Origin: a virus
DNA length: 30,872 nt
Virus record (IMG/VR): IMGVR_UViG_3300042673_001314
Span: 1-30,872 of that record
Reading direction: 5' to 3' (one strand)
In this document: piece after piece, positions 4,377 to 26,333 of the stretch
Numbering within the stretch: the first letter of the stretch is position 1
How the letters are laid out: the number at the start of each line of letters is the position of its first letter
Position numbers and translations under genes: made by a program
The notes under the pieces: model-generated
Told to the model about the DNA's origin: nothing
Seen by the model: only the letters and a program-made list of their open reading frames with translations
The model's database searches: none

Positions 4377-4474
4377 AAAACGAGGGAAAGAAAAAACTGG
4401 TTTTCGTCTTGGCCTACATGCTTTTTTGGCCCTTGTTTTTTTACGCAATCGAGGTCTTGTATAATGCAAGCTGA
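4373..4474 (+). CDS. Tiny single-pass membrane protein, 33 aa
   Basis: ATG 4373 overlaps the upstream TGA (ATGA) and the stop overlaps the protease start by 11 bases, the same overlap length as in the 3980/4128 pair. Sequence begins MKNEGKKKLVFVLAYMLFWP: lysine-rich N-terminus, then a hydrophobic helix of about 18-20 residues. Topologically like tiny phage holins or membrane regulators. Coupled position supports translation. Confidence 0.55.
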   Translation: MKNEGKKKLVFVLAYMLFWPLFFYAIEVLYNAS

Positions 4475-5294
4475 GTTTACCGGCTACGACCCTACCATCG
4501 AGAACCGCGATGAGATCGCCAACACAGCGACCCCGGTATTGTTTGCGCTCAGCGACGTTGAGGCTCCCGAAGAGATCGACCCAAGGCCACTGGTAAGGCA
4601 CGACGATCAAGCCAATATGGGCTCTTGCGGTGGGTTTGGCAACACAAACAATGGCGAGGGCCTTTGGGGACTTGTGACAGGTTCAATGAGCAACGAACGG
4701 CAGTTTAGCCAGCTATATGCTTACCTTGAGGCCCAAAGGCTTGACGGGCTACTAGGAAGCGATAAAGGCTCGACGATTAGCAGCGGGCTAAAGGTGGCAA
4801 AAGCAGGCTACCTAGAGCTAAAGCATCTGCCGTATCAGACTCCGTACCCCCGCAACGCGCGAACTTTGGTGACGGATGAAATGCGGGCTATTGCCAACAG
4901 ACCCCAGGGCTTTCGGATTCGTTCCCATGCTTGGCTCGAATCCTACGACGACATTTTCAAATACTTGGCATCGCAGGCGGGAACGGTTTACCCTGGTACC
5001 CCCTGGAACGACTCGTTCTATGGGAGAAACGGGGTTCTGGAGTCGGTAAGTTTTACGAATCGCGATGGCGGCCATGCTTATGCCTTTTTGGGCTACTCGA
5101 AACGCAAAGACCGAAGGGGCAGGAATTACCTTTGGAGGCTCAATAGTCACAGGCAAGACTCCTGGACCGAAGTTTCCCCCGAGGTTATCGACGTTCTTTG
5201 CCGGCATCAATGGAGCTCCATCGTGGGGATGAGCGATTTGCTGACCCCTGGCCCGAATCGGGTTCTCTGGAAGGAAGCGAAGCCACTAGGATGA
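4464..5294 (+). CDS. Papain-like (C1-type) cysteine protease
   Basis: 276 aa. After the tag EFTGYDPTI (residues 4-12), the motif DDQANMGSCGGFGN (about 48-61) matches the papain oxyanion-hole Gln and catalytic Cys region (Q-x-x-x-G-S-C-G). GGHAYAFLGYSK (about 202-213) supplies the catalytic His in the G-H-A context, and YLWRLNSH (about 223-230) the Asn motif (W-x-x-x-N-S in classical members). Order and spacing fit the C1 fold. No pro-domain or clear signal peptide is visible. A papain-like enzyme in this position of a phage is uncommon; it may digest host envelope proteins at lysis or process virion proteins. Confidence 0.8.
   Translation: MQAEFTGYDPTIENRDEIANTATPVLFALSDVEAPEEIDPRPLVRHDDQANMGSCGGFGNTNNGEGLWGLVTGSMSNERQFSQLYAYLEAQRLDGLLGSDKGSTISSGLKVAKAGYLELKHLPYQTPYPRNARTLVTDEMRAIANRPQGFRIRSHAWLESYDDIFKYLASQAGTVYPGTPWNDSFYGRNGVLESVSFTNRDGGHAYAFLGYSKRKDRRGRNYLWRLNSHRQDSWTEVSPEVIDVLCRHQWSSIVGMSDLLTPGPNRVLWKEAKPLG
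4471..4492 (+). repeat. 22-bp direct repeat encoding the tag, copy 2
   Basis: Partner of 4135-4156, at the 5 prime end of the cysteine protease gene. Confidence 0.85.
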
Positions 5295-5791
5295 ACGAAA
5301 AAGGAGGGCCGGTAATCATGGTTGCTTTGTTGTTTGGGTTGTTTTGGCTTTGTAGTGAACCGGCTAAAGATCCGACGCAATGCGATTTGACGGACTCGAA
5401 GCCGTTGATTGAGGAGGTGGCGAAGGCTAAAGACTCAATGATTCTTGACGCAGCAAAAGACGCGGCGGTTTCCATTTCGCTTGCTCTATCGCTCACAGAA
5501 AACCATATTGCCGACGCCAACAAAATGGTCGATCCCATGCCAAGCCCCTCGGACAAGCCCCACGAAAAGATGAAACGCGAGGTGCTGATTTTCGTCTCTG
5601 CGAATTGCCCCCCGTGCGATCGATGGAAGCGGTGCGAAATGAATCGATTCCTCGATGCAGGCTGGGCGGTTGGCATCGTCGAGGTTCATTCCTACGGGAT
5701 CACGCCGACATTTGAAATCGAATCGGGCGATAAGAAAGCAACGATTAAAGGCTACACGACCCTAGAGCAAGCAGCGGAGGCGTTGCGATGA
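5291..5791 (+). CDS. Membrane-associated thioredoxin-like protein with CPPC
   Basis: ATG 5291 overlaps the protease stop; the longer frame from 5198 lies within the protease gene. 166 aa. Residues 8-21 are hydrophobic (VIMVALLFGLFWLC), an anchor or a non-canonical lipoprotein-like signal ending at Cys21. A helical linker (about 40-90) follows, then a thioredoxin-like domain: EVLIFVSANCPPCDRW with the redox pair Cys106/Cys109, a proline in GITPTFEI at the usual cis-Pro position, and the C-terminal GYTTLEQAAEALR. It probably exchanges disulfides on the outer side of the inner membrane. It could be a reductant or an oxidant; the sequence alone does not decide. Confidence 0.75.
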   Translation: MNEKGGPVIMVALLFGLFWLCSEPAKDPTQCDLTDSKPLIEEVAKAKDSMILDAAKDAAVSISLALSLTENHIADANKMVDPMPSPSDKPHEKMKREVLIFVSANCPPCDRWKRCEMNRFLDAGWAVGIVEVHSYGITPTFEIESGDKKATIKGYTTLEQAAEALR

Positions 5792-16933: not shown

Positions 16934-17281
16934 GTGAGCCTTCACGATACCATCATCGAGGATGCCAAGAAGGTATTCGCCAACCCGCAAGACTTCGCAG
17001 AGCCGATCGTTTACTACAAAAGAAACGGTCGGTCGAGGAAGATCAACGCGGTAGTCATTCGCGAGGCCCTTGGCATCCTGCCAGAAGATGGTGACGTTGT
17101 TTATCCTATGTTTGAAATCCACGTTGCTAACGACCCATCCGAGGGCATCGCAAGCGACGAACTCAACTTGGGCGGCGATCAATTGGAATTTGCCGATCGA
17201 GTCGGCCAGCCACCAAAGCGGCATTCGATCCTAAAGCTACTCAGTCACGATGAAGGGATGTTGGTTCTCGAATGCCGCTAG
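16934..17281 (+). CDS. Head-tail joining protein (stopper-like)
   Basis: 115 aa, GTG 16934 three bases after the previous stop. The N-terminal helix (LHDTIIEDAKKVFANPQDF) and beta-strands (EPIVYYKRNG, RKINAVVIREAL, DVVYPMFEIHVAND) followed by a barrel-like end (PKRHSILKLLSHDEGMLVLEC) resemble lambda gpFII-like connector proteins. It would close the portal channel and dock the tail. It overlaps the next gene by 10 bases. Confidence 0.65.
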   Translation: MSLHDTIIEDAKKVFANPQDFAEPIVYYKRNGRSRKINAVVIREALGILPEDGDVVYPMFEIHVANDPSEGIASDELNLGGDQLEFADRVGQPPKRHSILKLLSHDEGMLVLECR

Positions 17282-17760
17282 CAGTTGTCGAAGAAATCGC
17301 AGTCGTCTTGAAATCGCGTCTCGATGCGATGATCGACGATGCTACGTACTCAACGGCAGTTAGCGAAGTACAGCGACCGAATCGATTTGCCAACTTTACG
17401 CCAGTCCATAATCAGATCGTTCTTACGCAAGGGCCAGCCGAGCGAGTCCCTGACTTGGACCGACCCGGCAATCCTCCTGCCAACGCGATGCGGCAGACGT
17501 TCAATATCCACTGCCATATCATGCAGGATGAACGCGGGACCGAGACCATCGACGAGCTACTAAACGCTTTCCATGCCGACGTTATCAAGGCCGTTTGCAA
17601 TGGGTCCAGCACTTGGCACACGTTCGGCGGCAATGCGATCGATGCAACCTGGGGCTCCATTCAATTCATCGCGGCAGACGGCGGTGTAGATGGCTTGACG
17701 ATCCCGCTACAGATCACTTGCCGTTACTCGGAAGACGACCCAACGGAGCTACGCAACTAA
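17272..17760 (+). CDS. Tail terminator-like protein (gpU-type position)
   Basis: 162 aa. A helical N-terminus (VEEIAVVLKSRLDAMI) and beta strands ending in DGGVDGLTIPLQITCRYSEDDP match the layout of tail-terminator proteins, whose C-terminal strand often reads as I-P-x-x-I-x-Y-R-x. It would form the ring that ends tail tube growth and joins the head. It precedes the gpZ-like gene. Confidence 0.65.
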   Translation: MPLAVVEEIAVVLKSRLDAMIDDATYSTAVSEVQRPNRFANFTPVHNQIVLTQGPAERVPDLDRPGNPPANAMRQTFNIHCHIMQDERGTETIDELLNAFHADVIKAVCNGSSTWHTFGGNAIDATWGSIQFIAADGGVDGLTIPLQITCRYSEDDPTELRN

Positions 17761-18416
17761 TGATAAATGTCACAGTCGATCAAGAATCGTTGCGGCAAAT
17801 GCGAGCCAATTTAGGGGCCTTCGGTGACCATTTGCCGAGGCATCTAGCGACAGCGGTAAACAGGGCGGCTAGGTCCGTTCGGGTCGAATGCGCTCAAGCC
17901 TTGGGGCCTTTGGTAAACCTCAAGGTGAGCAGCGAGAATAAAGGCATCGTCAAGCAGTTCAGCAAGGCCAAGACGCTAAAGAAAACTATTAAGCAGAAGA
18001 ACAAAGCGACCCCAGGCAATGCGGGCGTCACGATCGGACTTTGGGAAGGGCATAACTTCCCGGTCAAGTATTTTGAGGGCAAGAGCTACAGCCGAATGAA
18101 ACGCGGCAAGCGTAAGAGCCTTGGGGCTCAATACAAGTCGAGCGTGGGCGGCGGTTGGACAGTGGTTCAAGATGGATTCGTTGCGTCGCGATGGCGGGGT
18201 GATATTTATCGACCGGCTTCCGATGGCTCTCGCAAGCTTCTCAGGGTACTTGGAAAGCGTCCCGGCGATTTCTTCCGAGAGGGCAATATCGGAGAGGTTG
18301 CAGGGGCCAAGGCACGCGAACGACTACCCATTGAAATCAATCGACGGCTACGCGAAATCACACTGGCGGCAAGCGGCAAAATCAAACTCAGGGCATCAAG
18401 GGAGCTAGGGCAATGA
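17760..18416 (+). CDS. Minor tail protein Z-like (tail completion)
   Basis: 218 aa, ATG 17760 sharing a base with the upstream TAA; the longer upstream frame lies in the previous gene. The start INVTVDQESLRQMRANLGAF and the conserved segment HLPRHLATAVNRAARSVRVECAQ followed by LKVSSENKGIVKQFSKAKTL match the gpZ family, with a Lys/Arg-rich middle (SRMKRGKRKSLG). gpZ-type proteins act in tail completion and DNA positioning. The C-terminus is basic and helical. Confidence 0.75.
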   Translation: MINVTVDQESLRQMRANLGAFGDHLPRHLATAVNRAARSVRVECAQALGPLVNLKVSSENKGIVKQFSKAKTLKKTIKQKNKATPGNAGVTIGLWEGHNFPVKYFEGKSYSRMKRGKRKSLGAQYKSSVGGGWTVVQDGFVASRWRGDIYRPASDGSRKLLRVLGKRPGDFFREGNIGEVAGAKARERLPIEINRRLREITLAASGKIKLRASRELGQ

Positions 18417-19348
18417 CACTACTAAAACGCAAGCGGGTATTGGCAGCGAAGATTGAGACGACCCCAGGCACCGCCGAAGCATTGACGGCAGCGGAAGCCT
18501 CTTTTAACTGCTATGAGATTGCCATTCAACACGAGATCGAGACCGAAGCCCGAGAGGGCCAAGGATCGTTCGGGATGCGGGCATCGACCCCAGGCGGCTA
18601 CAAGGGTAAGGTGACGTTCAAGCACGACGCATCGTGGGACGGGACAGCAACCGAGCCATCTTGGGCCGATACGTTTCTTCCGGCTTGCGGATGGGTCAAG
18701 GCCGGTCAAGTATTCACGCCTCGCACAGAGGCCCCAGGAACCAACGTCAAGACCCTGACGATCGCGGTGTACATCGACGGCAAACGCAAGACCTTGCGGG
18801 GATGCGTTGGCACGTTCAAGGCCAATTGCATGAGCGGCAAGACTGTCGTTTTTGAGTTTGAGTTTATCGGTATCTGGGATTCGCCTACCGACGTTGCAAT
18901 CCTCGCACCGACTTACCCAACGGCTAGCCCATTGCGGTTTGCGTCAAGCGTGACGACCTGGAACAGCGTTGACCTTGCCGTGGAATCGATGGTGCTCGAT
19001 TCGGGTAACTCGATGTTGCTCCGAGAGGACTCAAGCGATGTTTCCGGATTCAAAGCGGGCTTGATTTCCAACCGCATCGTCAAGATCACTGGCAACCCCG
19101 AAGCCAAGCTAGTTGCTGCTCAAGATCGCTACGGCAAGTATCTTGACCTGAGCGAACATGCTTTGACGTTCGACATCGACGGACCAACCAACAGCAAGAT
19201 CACAATCGCGGCTCCAAAGGCTCAGATTGTGGCGATCAGCGAAGCCGACCGGGAGAATATGGTTGTCGATGAAATCGAATGGCAAGCCAACCGCAACGGA
19301 TCGACAGCAGACCAAGAATGCTCGATCACCTTTACCGCAGCGACCTAA
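18413..19348 (+). CDS. Major tail tube protein
   Basis: 311 aa, ATGA overlap with the gpZ-like gene. Begins LLKRKRVLAAKIETTPGTAEALTA, a typical start of long tail-tube subunits (L-A-A-K-I-E-T-x-x-G-T). Beta-rich body, including YKGKVTFKHDASWDG, KTVVFEFEFIGIWDSP and LRFASSVTTWNSVDLAVES. The last residues (DQECSITFTAAT) end in a strand. It is longer than minimal tube proteins, so an extra Ig-like or decoration domain is possible. Position between gpZ-like and chaperone genes fits lambda order. Confidence 0.8.
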   Translation: MTLLKRKRVLAAKIETTPGTAEALTAAEASFNCYEIAIQHEIETEAREGQGSFGMRASTPGGYKGKVTFKHDASWDGTATEPSWADTFLPACGWVKAGQVFTPRTEAPGTNVKTLTIAVYIDGKRKTLRGCVGTFKANCMSGKTVVFEFEFIGIWDSPTDVAILAPTYPTASPLRFASSVTTWNSVDLAVESMVLDSGNSMLLREDSSDVSGFKAGLISNRIVKITGNPEAKLVAAQDRYGKYLDLSEHALTFDIDGPTNSKITIAAPKAQIVAISEADRENMVVDEIEWQANRNGSTADQECSITFTAAT

Positions 19349-19360
19349 CACGGAGAGACC

Positions 19361-19711
19361 ATGCCAATTTTTCTAGAGCCAGATCAGAGCTTCCCGGTCT
19401 GGCTGGAATCCGACAAGGACAAGCCTGAAGAGTCGAGGCCTACGTTTTTCGTGCGATCCCAGTCGATGCGAAACCAACGCAAGGTGCTCGAAGTGCTTGA
19501 CGTTATCCACAGGCCCGGCGTAACGGTCGAACAGATTTTCAATGAGACTGTCGAGCAACTTAAAAAGGTGCTTGCTGGTTGGTCGAACATGAGCGGCATC
19601 GCGTTTGGCCCCGAGGCTATCGAGGACGTTTTCACGCTCACAGAGGCTAGGGAATTGCTCAGGCTGGTTGCCTACAATCAGCGAATGGACACAACCGAAA
19701 AAAAAGGCTGA
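19361..19711 (+). CDS. Tail assembly chaperone, short form (gpG-like)
   Basis: 116 aa. ATG 19361 after CGGAGAGACC. An N-terminal beta part (FFVRSQSMRNQRKVLEVLD) and helices (VEQIFNETVEQLKKVLAGW, DVFTLTEARELLRLVAYNQ) fit the gpG role. The -LLRLVAYNQRM- end followed by Lys-rich codons and a run of eight A is characteristic of the frameshift point in these genes. The product coats the tape measure during assembly. A -1 shift extends it into the zinc-rich T domain. Confidence 0.78.
   Translation: MPIFLEPDQSFPVWLESDKDKPEESRPTFFVRSQSMRNQRKVLEVLDVIHRPGVTVEQIFNETVEQLKKVLAGWSNMSGIAFGPEAIEDVFTLTEARELLRLVAYNQRMDTTEKKG
19699..19705 (+). promoter_or_regulatory. Slippery heptamer A AAA AAA for -1 programmed frameshift
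   Basis: In the chaperone frame the codons are GAA AAA AAA GGC TGA; the heptamer 19699-19705 allows the -1 slip four bases before the stop. After the slip the frame reads AGG CTG AGA and continues to 20043. The eight-A run spans 19698-19705. Position and arrangement match lambda G/GT. Any downstream stimulatory structure was not identified. Confidence 0.75.
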
Positions 19712-20043
19712 GAGTCGCGGCGATGATACGGCAAGGAATGCTTTGCCTACATTGCAGCGACAAGGAATGTAAGGACAGGGGGACCGATGCAGAGCCAATT
19801 GAAATCGAGTGCGTTGCTTGCAACGGGACAGGATGCGACGAATGCAGCGAGGGCGTTTATCGCGTCGAGGGTTGCCCGAATCAGTATTGCAGCGGACTTA
19901 CTCAGTTTGTCGAGTTGGTCGATTTGTTCGATGAGGGCCTACCCCCGGTAGCAGGCGGTGCGTTGGATCAGTCGGCTAGTTTTATCGAGGCGTCACGGCG
20001 GTTTAAAATCGAAGAACAACGAGCGAAAGCGGAACGGAAATAA
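19705..20043 (+). CDS. T domain of the GT-like fusion; cysteine-rich zinc-binding extension
   Basis: This frame is -1 to the chaperone and is best read as its frameshift extension, giving a fusion of about 227 aa; an independent start at ATG 19723 is possible but has no clear ribosome-binding site. The first part is zinc-rich: MLCLHCSDKECK, then IECVACNGTGCDECSEGVY, then CPNQYC. The C-x2-C-x-G-x-G-C-x2-C piece resembles a DnaJ-type zinc centre. The C-terminus is a charged helix (ASRRFKIEEQRAKAERK) that likely contacts the tube or tape measure. Confidence 0.7.
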   Translation, partial: RLRVAAMIRQGMLCLHCSDKECKDRGTDAEPIEIECVACNGTGCDECSEGVYRVEGCPNQYCSGLTQFVELVDLFDEGLPPVAGGALDQSASFIEASRRFKIEEQRAKAERK

Positions 20044-20046
20044 GCG

Positions 20047-21435
20047 ATGGCCGGGGACGCAATCAAGATCGTTATCGAAGCCGAGGACAAGGCATCCGCG
20101 CAGGCGATCAACGCATCGAGGAACATCGAGAACGCGGTCAAGGGCGTTAAGGAAACGGGGCAGAAGGCCAAAGCATCGACTGAGTTTATCGGCGTACTAG
20201 CAGGGCAGCTAGGCGGCTCACAGTTGCAACAGGCAGCGGGTGGAGTCGCGGCGATCACGGAAAAGGTAGGGCAGTTCTCCGAGGTAATGAAAGCTGGTGG
20301 CGTTGGGGCGATGGCGTTTCAGGCCGGTATCACGCTTTTGGTGACAACGCTATCGTTTAATCTCGGCAAGTCGATTGGCGAAGCTATCTTTGGCGTTCGA
20401 GAGCTCAAAGACGAATTTGGCGAAGCTCAAACTCAGGTCGAAGCGTTTACGGCTCGAATGAATGAGGCGGCAAACAAGGGCTTCAAGGAAAAGCTTGAGG
20501 ATTTAAGCCTAATCAAAGACCCGGCCAAGCAACAGAATGAAGCCGTCGCAGCATTCGAGGAAATCCAAGCTTCGATCAACAAAGCATACGACAGTTTCCA
20601 TCATCGCCAACGTGAAATCGAAAAGCTTACGATGGAAAGCGGGTTGCTTGGAGACAATCAAGACGCAATCAACAATTTGATTCTTGAAAACAATCAATAC
20701 GTCGACACGATCGACAACCTTGAGAAGCAGAAGGTCGCTTTGGCCGACGTTTACGGCGAACGGGCCAACGGCATCAAGGCAATCAAGGCGCAGCAAAAGG
20801 CCGAGGATGAAGCAGCGGCCAAAGCCAAGCAGACGCAAGCGTCGATACAGTCACAGCTAAAGAAAAACTATTTCGCCTACCTTGAACTTACCGAGGGCGT
20901 TGACGCAGCTCGAATGGCTCAACTTGCCGATGAGGGCATCGACGAGACCAACGCAAAACGGATCGTATTTGCCGAAAAAGCGACAAGACTAGAAAAAGAA
21001 CGGGTCGACAAGAAGAAAAAAGACGACGACCAAGAGGCTCAAAGAATTCAACGGATCGCGGATTTACAGGCCAGCGAAATCGACCGAATCAAAGAGCAAA
21101 AAATACTGCTCGAAGAGGGCGAAGAGGCAGCGAACCGATTTCGGCTAGAGCAGCAGGGTCTAGGCAAAGAGGCAGCGGCTAGAATCGCCTCCGAGCAAGC
21201 AGCCCTAGACCGTCAAAAGAAACAGGGCGAACTAGCCAAAAAGCTTGCCGAGAAACCCCAGTTAATGAGCGTAGAACAGCGACTAGTATCGCGGGGCGTC
21301 AATGAAGACACCCAAAAGGATATTGCAGCCAACACGCTAAAAACCGTCGAACGGCTCGAAGACGTTGCGGCAGCGATCAGAGACCAATCCAAGCCCCAAG
21401 CGGCAGACGCCTTGCAAGTGGAGTTTGTTGGATGA
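20047..21435 (+). CDS. Tape measure protein
   Basis: 462 aa. Start MAGDAIKIVIEAEDKASAQA is typical for tape-measure proteins. A central hydrophobic, Gly/Ala-rich section (AGGVGAMAFQAGITLLVTTLSF, about residues 82-103) could form the membrane-active segment. The remainder is mostly coiled coil, with heptads in KAQQKAEDEAAAKAKQ and RLEKERVDKKKKDDDQEA. By the usual scaling of about 0.15 nm per residue it would measure a tail of roughly 70 nm, which is short for a siphophage. No lytic or peptidase domain was seen in it. Confidence 0.82.
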   Translation: MAGDAIKIVIEAEDKASAQAINASRNIENAVKGVKETGQKAKASTEFIGVLAGQLGGSQLQQAAGGVAAITEKVGQFSEVMKAGGVGAMAFQAGITLLVTTLSFNLGKSIGEAIFGVRELKDEFGEAQTQVEAFTARMNEAANKGFKEKLEDLSLIKDPAKQQNEAVAAFEEIQASINKAYDSFHHRQREIEKLTMESGLLGDNQDAINNLILENNQYVDTIDNLEKQKVALADVYGERANGIKAIKAQQKAEDEAAAKAKQTQASIQSQLKKNYFAYLELTEGVDAARMAQLADEGIDETNAKRIVFAEKATRLEKERVDKKKKDDDQEAQRIQRIADLQASEIDRIKEQKILLEEGEEAANRFRLEQQGLGKEAAARIASEQAALDRQKKQGELAKKLAEKPQLMSVEQRLVSRGVNEDTQKDIAANTLKTVERLEDVAAAIRDQSKPQAADALQVEFVG

Positions 21436-22316
21436 GCAACATAATCGAAGTCACTGAAATGTGGAGCAAGCCGACCTCATCGGTAAGCCTTTCGGACAAC
21501 TTCCGCAAGCGATCGATTAAGCTACAGCGGGCGTTTCAGATCCTAACGACGCCAACGGCTAACGAGTACGATTGCTATCGATCAACTGGCATCCTCGAAG
21601 GCGATCGATTCAGCGATCAGTTTCCTTATGCCTTTGCGGACAACTTCTCCCTGTCGCGCCAAAGCCTTATCCTATGGCAGCTAAACATCGACTACAGCGG
21701 CGAACTAGGGCCAAGCGACAACCAGGACAACCCGTTATTCACTCCTCCTAGAATCGACTGGGATGACGTTGAGACCGAAGAGGAAATAGATGAGGATTGG
21801 GACGGCAAGCCGATTCAGACTATCAACGGCGAACCGATCGAAGGCGTCAAGACGCTCTTGCCAGATCAGACCGTATCGATTAAACGGAACATGCTTTTGT
21901 TCAACCCGTTCATCCAGGCCCGATACAGGCGATCGGTCAACAGCGATTCCTATCTCGGATGGCCTCCTGGCACCGCGAAGCTAATGAAACTATCGGCGTC
22001 CAACGTCATTACCCCCGAGCTTGCCTACTGGGAGGTGACCGGCCAAATCAGATTCCGCTATCCATACCGCACGACCAATGAGCGGGCATGGTATCGACGG
22101 GTTCGGCATCAAGGTTATTATAAGCGGGTCGACGTAAGCAACAACGAAACGCAAATCATCCGAGCGATGAAGGGCGGCGAACCGACTAACAGGCCGGTCT
22201 TGCTCGATGCCGAAGGCTACGAAATCCCGCAGGGTGACGGCCAGCAGGTCGAGGCCCATTGGCTAGAATTTAAGATTTACGATTCCCTTCCCTATGGAGC
22301 ATTGGGCTTACTATGA
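21432..22316 (+). CDS. Distal tail-type protein, hypothetical
   Basis: 294 aa, ATGA overlap on the tape measure, so it is made next in tail assembly. Beta-rich with aromatic residues: SLSRQSLILWQLNIDYSGELG, MLLFNPFIQARYRRSVNSDSY, ELAYWEVTGQIRFRYPYRTTN, YYKRVDVSNN. An acidic insertion (DDVETEEEIDEDWDG) lies in the middle. Position suggests the distal tail (Dit-like) or tip attachment protein, but no Dit signature is certain. No family is named. Confidence 0.6.
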   Translation: MSNIIEVTEMWSKPTSSVSLSDNFRKRSIKLQRAFQILTTPTANEYDCYRSTGILEGDRFSDQFPYAFADNFSLSRQSLILWQLNIDYSGELGPSDNQDNPLFTPPRIDWDDVETEEEIDEDWDGKPIQTINGEPIEGVKTLLPDQTVSIKRNMLLFNPFIQARYRRSVNSDSYLGWPPGTAKLMKLSASNVITPELAYWEVTGQIRFRYPYRTTNERAWYRRVRHQGYYKRVDVSNNETQIIRAMKGGEPTNRPVLLDAEGYEIPQGDGQQVEAHWLEFKIYDSLPYGALGLL

Positions 22317-22942
22317 CAACCGTAACCGACGTAACAATGATTCTGCCCCCCGAGGTGATTACCAACTATACGATCGCGGGCAATGCCGACATCGCGACGA
22401 CCAAGCTAGCCCAAAGGGTGCTTGCTGAGTCGATTGTCCCATTGACTCAGGCGCGGACCTGGGATGCAGTTGCAAGCAATTTGCCCGCATCGGCATCGAG
22501 CGACGATCTAGGGCTAGTCTCAGGCACTTGGGGAACCAATCCAGCCAGAATCACGGCAGGCGATGTTAAGACCCTTGGAGCGACCACCAGACGCCTCTAT
22601 TTGGCGATCCCGATCCCGGCTAACTATGAGGACGGGCAGACGATCCAATTGCAGATTCGGGCCAAGATGGAGACGACCGTAGCGGATGTTTCTTGCACGA
22701 TCGACGCAGAGGCTTACGTCGGCTCGGATGGGTCGCTATCGAGCGACCTAGTGACAACGGCGGCGCAGTCGATGAACAGCCTTACGGCGGTGGCTTACAA
22801 CTTCACGGTCAACGCAACGGGCGTCGACCCGGGGGACTTGCTCGAATTGCGTTTGTCGATCAGCAGCAACGATGCAGCGACGGCTACGGCGGTGACCCCG
22901 GCGATCTATTCAATCGCCCTCCTCTGCGATACGAGGGGCTAA
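22313..22942 (+). CDS. Tail-tip structural protein, hypothetical
   Basis: 209 aa, ATGA overlap. An N-terminal segment with IAGNADIATTKLAQRVLAESIVP resembles the start of many trimeric fibre-like phage proteins (residues I-A-x-x-A-D-I-x-T-x-K-L). The remainder is beta-sandwich-like (TTRRLYLAIPIPANYED, VSCTIDAEAYVGSDG, YNFTVNATGVDPGDLLELRLSI). Probably a small fibre or tip protein. It precedes the next gene by one base. Confidence 0.6.
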   Translation: MTTVTDVTMILPPEVITNYTIAGNADIATTKLAQRVLAESIVPLTQARTWDAVASNLPASASSDDLGLVSGTWGTNPARITAGDVKTLGATTRRLYLAIPIPANYEDGQTIQLQIRAKMETTVADVSCTIDAEAYVGSDGSLSSDLVTTAAQSMNSLTAVAYNFTVNATGVDPGDLLELRLSISSNDAATATAVTPAIYSIALLCDTRG

Positions 22943-22943
22943 C

Positions 22944-23624
22944 GTGGCCAAAGAGATCGGAGCATACACGCCGAAACAGGCCAAGCGGATTTGGGAATCT
23001 GTTCAGGCCTTTGAGCGGATGGGGTCGACATCGGCAACGATGGCGATTCCCTACACGCCAACTCCGATCTATTTCGTTAACAAGTCGACCGCAACGATCC
23101 CGGCTTACGGTTGCATCCAGATGAACGGGGCAAGCGAGATCGACGGCACGACGTACATCGAGGTTACTAGGCCGTTCGACTACAGCAATTCCGTTATGGG
23201 GCCTTTCCTGTTGAATGGGCCGGGCGAATGCTTGCCGGATGAAATCGGCACGGCTCAATGGGGGCCAATCTTTCGAGCAAAAAAAGACTCAGCAACCTAC
23301 TCAACCGGTACGCGGATGGGGCCAGTAGAATCGTCGTTTGACCTGTCGAAAGGATGCCTGTTTACGTTCATCGGTGACGACGAGCAAGAGGACGACATTA
23401 TCAAGGTGATTGCTTGCGAGACGCCATTGCTGGCGGTGGCAGGATCCGGAATCGGTGCGAATACGAGCGGGACCGTGACAGCCAAACAACCAGCCAGCGG
23501 CAATTGGACAGCGGGGACGATAACCTATACGGCATGGAATCCAACGGGCGTGGCGATCGCTTCGGCGGCTAGCGTCTTGCTGTTTCCGGTGGATGCCAAA
23601 TGGCTTGCAGTGGAGTTGTGCTAA
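22944..23624 (+). CDS. Tail-tip structural protein, hypothetical
   Basis: 226 aa, GTG 22944 just after the previous TAA. N-terminal helix (PKQAKRIWESVQAFERM) then beta-rich domain (PIYFVNKSTATIPAYGCIQ, GPFLLNGPGECLPDE, ATYSTGTRMGPVESSF). The pattern suggests a carbohydrate- or protein-binding tip protein. Contains only a few cysteines (five by my count), unlike its downstream neighbour. No family recognised. Confidence 0.6.
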   Translation: MAKEIGAYTPKQAKRIWESVQAFERMGSTSATMAIPYTPTPIYFVNKSTATIPAYGCIQMNGASEIDGTTYIEVTRPFDYSNSVMGPFLLNGPGECLPDEIGTAQWGPIFRAKKDSATYSTGTRMGPVESSFDLSKGCLFTFIGDDEQEDDIIKVIACETPLLAVAGSGIGANTSGTVTAKQPASGNWTAGTITYTAWNPTGVAIASAASVLLFPVDAKWLAVELC

Positions 23625-25058
23625 ATGGGCGGGATAGGTCGATGCTGTTGCACTTGCGAATGCTTGCCGATCGAGGATTTGCCGACCGTTACGATCAGCG
23701 GCTATACCGGCGGCGGATGGAGCGGTACTTGCTGCTACGAGCAAACCTTCACGCCAAACGCTACGCCAAGCTGGTCGAAAAATTGCAGCTCTTTACTTTA
23801 CGAAGGCTCGGTACTTCAAGAATGCACAACGCTCCACACAAGGCAAACCAGGGGTAGCTATCGAGGGTTTGAGTATGGGCCTCTCGGCGGCGATTGTAGC
23901 GACGTTCCAGAGAATTATTGTTGCGGTGGCAGCTACTCTCCGATAGCAGAAACGCAAAGCACGGCGGCGTATACCGACAATGCTTTTATGGCGGTTTGGC
24001 GCAGACCTAAAAACATCATCGTTCGCATAAGCCAGGAAGAGGTTGACTGCGAAGGCGTGGAGGGGCAAACCGGCGGGTGCAAGATCGTTATCCGGTCACG
24101 GTTTAATTACGAATACGAAACGGCGATCTACCAAAACGGATTAACAAGCGGATCTCAAACGGTGACGATGCTTAACACCGATTGCTTCGAGGTAAATCCC
24201 GATTACGAAATTAGCATAAGCGCATCGGGTGCGATTGGTTGCAGCGAAGTACCAGCCGACCCACCGCCTTTTAGCGGGTCGAATTTATGCCGAAACTCAG
24301 GCGTGTTTGGCTTTGATCGAGTCCGATACTATGACGAAATGCCGACCGGGGCAATTCAATTTACAAACGCCGAAGTCCCCGGGTGCGAAGCTAGCTCTTG
24401 CAACTATGAACCGTACAACTACGCAAGCTCGGTTTGCATCAACTCACCATCTAGCCCATCTGCCCTCACGGGATGCTTTTTCAACGAGCCGTGCTACTGT
24501 ACCGATGAAGTCACATCGGGCGGGCCTATCATCGAATCCGAAGCGGAAAACTGTTTCAATGATGGGCTAGGGCAGACCCCAAACGTAACAGATATTGACG
24601 GGTGCTTTGACGATCCTTGCATCCCGGCGGTATCCTGCACGACGAATTTAACGATATGCGCGACCCCTGAATATGAATGCCCAGGCACGGCGTTTTCCGT
24701 CAACTGCCTAGACTTTGAAATCAACCCAGAGAATGAAGCGACTTGTTTTAGGCCGGGCGTAGGCTTTCCATTCGGAGATTTGTCCGCTTGCGGTTGCGGT
24801 ATCAGCGTAGGCGATGCGGGCGGAACTACACCGCCGTACTTCGACACATCGGACTGTTTCGTGGGCAACTGCAACGAGGCTTGCTGCGATTTCCTCGACG
24901 ATTGCGAATGCTGCTTACCAGATGGCCGATGTTTGCCTAAGTTCGCTCAAAAGTGGAATCAAACAGTTACCGCCCACACTCGAACCCAAACGTGTTCGGG
25001 TTTTTCAAGTCAATCAGTCTGTACAGGTGCTCCATCGTGGACAATCAATCTGTCGTAA
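23625..25058 (+). CDS. Extremely cysteine-rich putative tail adhesin
   Basis: 477 aa with about 43 Cys by my count (roughly 9 percent), including RCCCTCECLP near the N-terminus, ENYCCGG, GCFFNEPCYC, and a dense C-terminal block NCNEACCDFLDDCECC followed by LPDGRCLP. Other regions look beta-rich and Ser/Thr/Gly/Pro-rich. The CC-L-P-D-G-x-C motif resembles disulfide-rich motifs of extracellular planctomycete-type proteins. The density suggests disulfide or metal cross-linking rather than ordinary thiols. It is the last gene of the tail block, so a surface-exposed adhesin is likely. It overlaps the ERV-like oxidase gene by 22 bases. Confidence 0.65.
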   Translation: MGGIGRCCCTCECLPIEDLPTVTISGYTGGGWSGTCCYEQTFTPNATPSWSKNCSSLLYEGSVLQECTTLHTRQTRGSYRGFEYGPLGGDCSDVPENYCCGGSYSPIAETQSTAAYTDNAFMAVWRRPKNIIVRISQEEVDCEGVEGQTGGCKIVIRSRFNYEYETAIYQNGLTSGSQTVTMLNTDCFEVNPDYEISISASGAIGCSEVPADPPPFSGSNLCRNSGVFGFDRVRYYDEMPTGAIQFTNAEVPGCEASSCNYEPYNYASSVCINSPSSPSALTGCFFNEPCYCTDEVTSGGPIIESEAENCFNDGLGQTPNVTDIDGCFDDPCIPAVSCTTNLTICATPEYECPGTAFSVNCLDFEINPENEATCFRPGVGFPFGDLSACGCGISVGDAGGTTPPYFDTSDCFVGNCNEACCDFLDDCECCLPDGRCLPKFAQKWNQTVTAHTRTQTCSGFSSQSVCTGAPSWTINLS

Positions 25059-25498
25059 ACATAAACATGGACGGGACGCCATTCACCCCAGGCAAGCCAG
25101 CGCAGCCGCGATCCTTCACGATCACGATGGTAGGCGATCCACCGCCGACAATCAGCCAAGAGCAAGTCAACGCGAAGCGGATCGAGCGAACGATTAAGCA
25201 AGGCCAATTCGCTTGGGCCAAACTCCACAGCTATCGCGGTTGCGATCCTCAGTGGCTCGACATTTGGCAGTACCTAATCCCGCAGCGGTGCGACTGCAAG
25301 GAAGGCTACCAGCGAATCCTTGCCGAGATCCCCCCCGACTTCTCATCCCCTGAAGCATTCTTTGCCTGGGGCGTTCGACTGCACAACGCAGTCAACGCGA
25401 AGCTTGGCAAGCCTGAAATCACGATCGACGAAGCCTATAAAATCTGGAGGAAATCAGATGGCTTGGACCAGCAGGAAACTATCGAGAAACGTAGTTGA
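25037..25498 (+). CDS. ERV/ALR-like sulfhydryl oxidase
   Basis: 153 aa from GTG 25037; ATG 25067 is an alternative start that keeps all motifs. FAWAKLHSY (Trp60, His64) matches the W-x-x-L-H of ERV helix 1. QRCDC (Cys85, Cys87) stands where ERV enzymes have the redox C-x2-C. FFAWGVRLHNAVNAKLGKP (H116-N-x-V-N120) is the hallmark FAD-binding motif, followed by IDEAYKIW. The order matches the ERV fold. Oddities: C-x-C instead of C-x2-C, and no Cys before HN as in yeast Erv1. It would use FAD and oxygen to form disulfides. Its overlap with the 43-Cys gene suggests a dedicated partner. Confidence 0.7.
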   Translation: MDNQSVVNINMDGTPFTPGKPAQPRSFTITMVGDPPPTISQEQVNAKRIERTIKQGQFAWAKLHSYRGCDPQWLDIWQYLIPQRCDCKEGYQRILAEIPPDFSSPEAFFAWGVRLHNAVNAKLGKPEITIDEAYKIWRKSDGLDQQETIEKRS

Positions 25499-26333
25499 AA
25501 TAACGATCGATTTAACTCGGAACAAAGACTGGGAGCAATGGGTATTGCTTCGGTCGGATGTCCACCACGACAACCCAAAATGCGATCAAGCCTTGGAGCG
25601 GCGGCATTTAGAAGAGGCTCTTGAGTACGACGCTCCGATCATCGACAACGGCGATCTGTTCTGCGCAATGCAGGGCAAGTGGGACAAGCGAAGCGACAAG
25701 AACGCACTAAGGGAAGAACACAGGGGCAGCAACTACTTTGATTTGCTGGTTGAGACGGCAGCGGACTTCTACAGGCCTTTTGGCTCGCACTTTGTAGTGC
25801 TTGGAAAGGGCAACCATGAGACGGCGGTGACTGGTCGACATGAAACCGACTTAACCGATCGGCTAGCGTCTAGGATGCGGGCTCAGGGCTCCAAAGTCGA
25901 GGCCAGCGGGTACGGTGGCTACGTCTTGTTTCGGTTTAACGATACAAACCAAAAAGACAAACCCACCAAAGACACAAAGAAGCTTCACCACTTCCACGGA
26001 ACGGGCGGCGGCGGGCCAGTTACGCGGGGCGTAATCCAGACGAATCGGCTAGCGGTATTTCAACCTGACGCGGATATCGTGCTGTCCGGTCACACCCATG
26101 ACGAATGGAGCGTGACTATTCCGAGGGTCAGAATATCGAGTCACGGCGTAATCACTCAGGACGAACAGCTACACGTACGCGCCCCCGGCTACAAAGACGC
26201 TTGGGGCGATGGCGATCACGGCTGGGAAGTCGAGAAGATGCTAGGCCCAAAGGCCCTTGGGGCGGCGTGGCTACAGTTCCGATGGGACTGGGAAAAACAG
26301 CGGGTCATGGTCGATGCGTTGAGGGCGAAATAA
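25458..26333 (+). CDS. Calcineurin-like metallophosphoesterase
   Basis: 291 aa. ATG 25458 has GGAGGA at 25446-25451, an ideal spacing, and overlaps the previous gene by 41 bases. Metal-ligand motifs occur in order: SDVHH (Asp34-x-His36), NGDLF (Asp66), GKGNHE (118-121 for GNHE), HFHG near 178-181 and SGHTHDEW (GHTH 211-214). These define the two-metal phosphoesterase core. Substrate is unknown; phage members may act on nucleic acids, nucleotides or protein phosphates. It sits after the tail block, before a small metalloprotein. Family call is firm. Confidence 0.85.
   Translation: MAWTSRKLSRNVVEITIDLTRNKDWEQWVLLRSDVHHDNPKCDQALERRHLEEALEYDAPIIDNGDLFCAMQGKWDKRSDKNALREEHRGSNYFDLLVETAADFYRPFGSHFVVLGKGNHETAVTGRHETDLTDRLASRMRAQGSKVEASGYGGYVLFRFNDTNQKDKPTKDTKKLHHFHGTGGGGPVTRGVIQTNRLAVFQPDADIVLSGHTHDEWSVTIPRVRISSHGVITQDEQLHVRAPGYKDAWGDGDHGWEVEKMLGPKALGAAWLQFRWDWEKQRVMVDALRAK

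Follow-up and report, generated by a model that had tools for sequence, protein, structure and literature searches.

A putative dedicated disulfide-forming pair in uncultured tailed phages: an ERV-like C-x-C oxidase gene beside a cysteine-rich tail gene

Two overlapping genes of an uncultured tailed phage are proposed to encode a substrate and its enzyme, that is, a diversifying tail adhesin and a dedicated cytosolic flavin oxidase that would form disulfides in it. We put the probability of this reading at roughly three in four, with FAD binding, catalysis, the disulfides themselves, the tail location and docking all inferred. That the phages bring their own disulfide tool for the adhesin is suggested by the fact that about 80 related phages keep both genes together.

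Disulfides do not normally form in the bacterial cytosol, and an oxidase would be needed. The Cys-rich protein, a late tail protein and most likely the distal adhesin, would be synthesised in the cytosol of the host, lacking a hydrophobic export signal, and translation of the oxidase would start within the 3′ end of the adhesin gene. The C-x-C pair of the oxidase would accept electrons from adhesin thiols and pass them via FAD to oxygen, the likely acceptor, or to another acceptor. As no shuttle Cys pair is present, the oxidase would act directly on its substrate. Folding of the adhesin with its many disulfides would precede or accompany tail assembly, and an adhesin-type-specific N-terminal extension of the oxidase is a possible docking segment.

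Gene organisation

The DNA analysed here (the window) is an IMG/VR virus record of 30,872 bases. Its gene order is ordinary for a tailed phage, running from terminase over a lambda-type portal, capsid and tail tube to the tail genes. The best matches of the portal are Synechococcus phages (35%), which does not settle the host. NCBIfam assigned no name to the proteins of the window, and a comparison with the isolated phages of INPHARED gave no match to either protein of the pair or to three distant oxidases. The features of the pair are collected in Table 1. The GTG start of the oxidase gene is backed by an ATG at the equivalent place in relatives as well as by the AGGTG just upstream, and the two genes likewise overlap or abut in the relatives. 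A calcineurin-like phosphoesterase gene (25458–26333, + strand) overlaps the oxidase gene by 41 bases; relatives of this phosphoesterase occur in many phage contigs, some with neither an oxidase nor a Cys-rich gene nearby.

Table 1 Features of the gene pair (positions in the window; A1, alignment of 21 oxidases)
Feature	Position	Strand	Remarks
Cys-rich gene	23625..25058	+	final gene of the tail block; 477 aa, 43 Cys; N-terminus MGGIGRCCCTCECL; presumed tail adhesin and substrate
ERV/ALR-like sulfhydryl-oxidase gene	25037..25498	+	153 aa; GTG start; C-x-C type
Overlap of Cys-rich gene and oxidase gene	25037..25058	+	22 bases
AGGTG, Shine–Dalgarno-like	25025..25029	+	seven bases 5′ of the oxidase GTG start
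W60-A-K-L-H64, ERV helix-1 motif	25214..25228	+	W, L and H invariant in A1
C85-D-C87, presumed redox-active pair	25289..25297	+	start of helix 3; invariant in A1
H116-N-A-V-N120	25382..25396	+	helix 4; from the ALR phmmer alignment and A1
First recombination junction, at the Cys-rich start codon	23625..23629	+	88% DNA identity with L034 stops here
Second recombination junction, within the oxidase gene	25322..25334	+	between helix 3 and helix 4; blastn of the window against L044, L059 and L048
Variable N-terminal extension of the oxidase (residues 1–58)	25037..25210	+	swaps with the Cys-rich gene; candidate substrate-docking segment

The cysteine-rich protein

The coordinates and the 43 Cys in 477 residues reported in an earlier note on this DNA, together with the overlap with the following gene, proved exact on recount. 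Cys thus makes up 9.0% of the product, as against 0–2.3% in the majority of the window's other genes. When this DNA is read in its two remaining forward frames, stops abound and the Cys counts are 5 and 8, so that the richness is attributed to coding composition; chance Cys content was ruled out on the basis of the Cys-poor neighbouring genes and forward frames.

No family or sequence match was obtained for the protein from Pfam, PHROG, NCBIfam or a profile search of PDB sequences. Homologs could be gathered down to about 18% identity (about 13–15% outside Cys), and an alignment of 36 diverse members (A2) contains 29 columns conserved at ≥90%, 17 of them Cys where the composition would lead one to expect 2.4. 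An AF2 model is mostly beta (pLDDT 76.8, pTM 0.69) and found no convincing fold relative in the PDB or BFVD; the adhesin role consequently rests on position and exchange only. From these two (see below for the exchange) the product is inferred to be a tail protein, probably the receptor-binding tip, its presence in the virion being likewise an inference. Neither the Cys-rich protein nor the oxidase has a strongly hydrophobic stretch (KD19 maxima of 1.05 and 0.44), and both therefore look cytosolic.

A different use of the Cys is conceivable, namely that they bind metal (Zn or Fe–S) in the manner of lambda gpL while the ERV-like protein tunes their thiol state or the metal loading. Cys-held metal or Fe–S sites are known from phage tail tips, as in the putative site of the JBD30 upper baseplate, for which lambda gpL is cited (PMC11445458), and the near-invariant CCCxCxC cluster at the N-terminus could hold a metal. 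Conversely, merely two CxxC motifs are found among the 43 Cys of the window protein, no conserved His was detected in the alignment of 36 homologs, and an ERV-type oxidase that is always adjacent would be counterproductive beside a thiolate metal site. Moreover, the known metal sites of tail tips use about four Cys. Taken together, these points only argue against metal, including the zinc that the earlier note had named as a refuting outcome; we regard metal binding as unlikely, with a site in the N-terminal cluster not excluded.

Two minor observations concern Cys patterns. The first 14 residues of the homologs (e.g. L042 and L047) follow a near-invariant pattern such as MGxxGxCCCxCxCL, whose dense Cys cluster might represent either a disulfide knot or a metal site; the MGCxxxC form resembles eukaryotic lipidation signals. 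The exception to the low Cys content of other window genes is a small ORF of the tail region (19723–20043, + strand) with nine Cys in 106 residues, arranged in CxxC pairs (CVACNGTGCDEC); its product is zinc-ribbon or DnaJ-like, and the pattern does not resemble that of the 43-Cys protein.

Fold and active site of the oxidase

The oxidase matches PF04777 (Evr1_Alr) with E = 1.2e-9 and 38.9 bits at a cut-off of 27.6. The cut-off is also passed by the relatives L174 (44.7), L093 (43.1), L252 (30.3) and L234 (30.2), and missed by L213 (22.9). Searching PDB sequences with phmmer returned human ALR at E = 3.5e-7, along with yeast Erv1, and a profile search was stronger than the single-sequence search (1.3e-9 vs. 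3.5e-7). A structure model of low confidence (pLDDT 58.9) has five helices in ERV order, and the top 24 Foldseek matches to this model in the PDB are all ERV/ALR (probability 0.97–1.00), among them ALR (E 3e-4, probability 1.0), Erv1, Erv2 and ASFV pB119L. The distant relative L093 aligns with ALR over the whole domain, including W-x-x-L-H and HNxVN. No PHROG family covers the oxidase. The homology to ERV enzymes that the earlier note had read from motifs in 25037–25498 was upheld by Pfam, phmmer and Foldseek, and no placement outside the ERV fold was found. The full-length ALR alignment of L093 and a canonically spaced CSAC in L174, likewise a distant relative, give good support for descent of the predicted protein from an ERV fold, without demonstrating its chemistry.

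The HNxVN sequence of helix 4 is the FAD-binding motif of ERV enzymes. Ten residues are invariant across the 21 oxidases of A1 (W60, L63, H64, C85, C87, H116, N117, V119, N120 and K125). The order of motifs given previously (W-x-x-L-H, a Cys pair, H-N-x-V-N) is present, with one difference in detail: the Cys pair is C-x-C and not the C-x-x-C of ERV enzymes. This spacing recurs in 80 of 81 distinct oxidase/Cys-rich pairs, the sole CxxC being that of L174. At both positions of the ALR structural Cys pair (WLCHLHN...FDC) the oxidase has no Cys in the alignment with ALR, and a second (shuttle) pair is absent from the window oxidase, which has three Cys in total, the third not conserved. The active-site CxxC forms part of the ERV/ALR signature (PMC10598087). 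Under a strict definition that includes it, the protein, as judged from its sequence, is an ERV-like variant and not a canonical ERV. With the C-x-C spacing and the structural and shuttle pairs absent, catalysis is not to be taken for granted.

It has accordingly to be considered that the ERV-like protein has lost catalysis and instead assists the Cys-rich protein, either as a structural subunit or as a chaperone for its folding; the missing canonical CxxC (80/81 pairs) and the missing structural pair could be invoked for this. A dead enzyme would be expected to lose its redox pair first; instead, relatives with as little as about 26% identity still have the two cysteines of the CxC as well as W, H and HNxVN, and CSAC is present in one relative. 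This possibility is judged quite unlikely, and an active oxidase remains the preferred reading.

As a side observation, ERV-like proteins with a Cys-rich C-terminal end (CCNGMESAKTGKKCCRDQD or similar) are encoded in L225 (5842–6333), L143 (4842–5348) and L363 (2011–4053). This end, a possible shuttle Cys pair, occurs in unfused as well as fused forms.

Pairing of the two genes

Conserved pairing of the oxidase with Cys-rich genes, the absence of which would have counted against the substrate pairing inferred in the earlier note, was borne out by the neighbourhood search: in 81 of 81 distinct viral ERV/Cys-rich pairs the genes are adjacent, with 25–55 Cys in the product of the upstream gene, and the flanking-gene controls described below agree. 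The pairs were gathered with the oxidase as first query and increasingly distant members as later ones, and wherever upstream DNA was available these oxidase-based searches found no oxidase without a Cys-rich neighbour. When the Cys-rich gene served as query, an oxidase was present at all 35 loci with at least 400 bases downstream (34 by script and L293 by reading).

The least biased test employs flanking genes as bait. Anchoring on the downstream phosphoesterase gave an oxidase in 52/52 loci with a long Cys-rich gene (50 by script; L338 and L363 recognised by reading) vs. 0/18 loci without one, and anchoring on an upstream tail gene gave 33/34 vs. 0/7. With the Cys-rich query and the flanking-gene baits, an artefact of oxidase-based searching was ruled out. 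The loci L338, L363 and L293 were dismissed as exceptions: they carry the ERV domain, which filters on motif or distance had overlooked. The one true exception among the 34 upstream-anchored loci is L474, in which an ORF of 229 residues and 18 Cys occupies the Cys-rich position without an oxidase; L467 and L468 encode moderately Cys-containing proteins, again without an oxidase. It should be noted that the relatedness of the loci makes formal p-values too optimistic, although the direction is uniform, and that inherited synteny accounts for part of the adjacency within a single phage lineage. The same pair is seen in the divergent L093, the single hit from a bacterial bin, which lies on a phage-like contig whose genes are ordered differently; PF04777 occurs in 1/296 genomes of the phylum of this bin.

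The oxidase might instead serve host proteins or a different protein of the phage, such as the thioredoxin-like CPPC protein whose gene is found in 12 of 20 related records tested, with adjacency being mere inherited gene order. This is very improbable, given that presence of the oxidase tracks the Cys-rich gene in the flank-anchored sets, that divergent L093 shows the same pair, that the thioredoxin-like protein has a hydrophobic N-terminus, and that L351 has a domain of this kind attached to a peptidase-like protein at a locus where no oxidase was found.

The thioredoxin-like protein itself (window 5291–5791, + strand) contains CPPCxxWKRCE, and its gene adjoins one (4464–5294) that by motif resembles a papain-type peptidase; the similar domain in L351 has CSWC. 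As a relay partner of the oxidase it was considered weak, on account of the hydrophobic N-terminus and the L351 arrangement.

Cassette exchange

The window and L034 share 88% DNA identity over 17133–23629. Beyond this point L034 carries a different Cys-rich gene, whose product is about 18% identical and contains 34 Cys, both values being those of the near-identical L031/L024 type. Similarity returns at 25211, in the ERV core, three bases 5′ of the W-x-x-L-H motif. Three further relatives (L044, L059 and L048) regain similarity to the window further downstream, at the second junction of Table 1. Cassette exchange of this kind is the behaviour of receptor-binding proteins, and from these comparisons the Cys-rich gene is read as the diversifying final tail gene. 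The extension types of the oxidase track the adhesin types with an adjusted Rand index of 0.85; for the CxC half the index drops to 0.47, and for the C-terminal half to 0.13. This gradient fits an extension that would dock the substrate, but physical linkage alone predicts the same pattern; the co-variation is thus suggestive only and no proof of specificity.

Relation to known systems

Most descriptions of ERV enzymes concern eukaryotes and their large DNA viruses, besides a few bacteria (PMC3509050, PMC10598087); PF04777 is listed from eukaryotes, some bacteria and some dsDNA viruses (PMC10598087). Among viral Ervs a compact form without shuttle disulfide is frequent, and the physiological targets are often unknown (PMC3509050). 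The phage oxidase shares with the Ervs of nucleocytoplasmic large DNA viruses (NCLDV; mimivirus R596, ASFV pB119L) and PF04777 the Pfam match, the five-helix order, the W..LH and HNxVN motifs and a compact core without shuttle pair, and it is likewise virus-encoded and presumably cytosolic. It differs from them in occurring in tailed phages, in having C-x-C for C-x-x-C and in lacking the ALR structural Cys pair; it is also fixed beside one Cys-rich gene, and some relatives are fused to a glycosyltransferase (see below). Within the open literature, of which coverage was partial, no report of ERV in tailed phages was found. The phage oxidase thus combines a known enzyme fold and an unusual spacing at the active site with a setting that is new and apparently dedicated.

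Poxviruses form disulfides in the cytosol by a three-protein relay (E10R–A2.5L–G4L) that acts on several membrane virion proteins. The phage pair, as proposed, would similarly provide virus-encoded cytosolic disulfide formation for virion proteins, with the difference that one oxidase stands beside one apparent substrate and no relay was found. A phage receptor-binding protein with a dedicated chaperone gene is also a known arrangement. It has in common with the present pair that an adhesin gene is followed by a helper gene and that the adhesin is exchanged as a cassette, whereas the helper here is a flavin oxidase homolog and not a chaperone. Sharing of a tail fibre and its cognate chaperone between phages has been reported (PMC10579305). 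Metal-binding tail-tip proteins (lambda gpL; JBD30 upper baseplate, PMC11445458) resemble the Cys-rich protein in having conserved Cys in a presumed tail-tip protein, and differ from it in that the latter has 25–55 Cys along the whole chain and an adjoining oxidase.

If the proposed pairing of oxidase and adhesin is correct, phages make disulfide-rich virion proteins in a reducing cytosol, a minimal CxC oxidase suggests itself for bacterial production of disulfide proteins, and a likely receptor-binding gene is pinpointed in a large group of uncultured phages. Since gene order indicates one substrate per enzyme in dozens of variants, the substrate specificity of ERV enzymes becomes directly testable.

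Fused forms of the oxidase

In L252 (5659–7122) the ERV domain continues into a family-1/4 glycosyltransferase (PF00534, 3.6e-20). A second domain with VDADC and LNSGV motifs follows the ERV domain in L138, L195, L213, L228 and L232–L234; it looks like a GT-A glycosyltransferase, and the two tested, L234 and L213, gave no Pfam match for it. A fused helper may modify the adhesin in two ways, which is an inference. More generally, many uncultured tailed phages may share a dedicated cytosolic maturation of their receptor-binding proteins. A CxC ERV flavoenzyme, with a docking extension specific to the adhesin and in some cases a fused glycosyltransferase, would oxidise, and in some phages also glycosylate, an adhesin clamped by disulfides, and this adhesin would be exchanged along with the docking part of its enzyme. 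This wider generalisation is tentative, and we rate it somewhat short of even odds.

Fused ERV-like proteins, each encoded after a Cys-rich gene, are found in L252 (5659–7122), L138 (4836–5900), L234 (5815–6858), L363 (2011–4053) and L338 (1942–3138), the fusion partners in this set being a glycosyltransferase, glycosyltransferase-like or unassigned. Some fused ERV-like proteins also carry a zinc-ribbon-like CxxC segment at the N-terminus.
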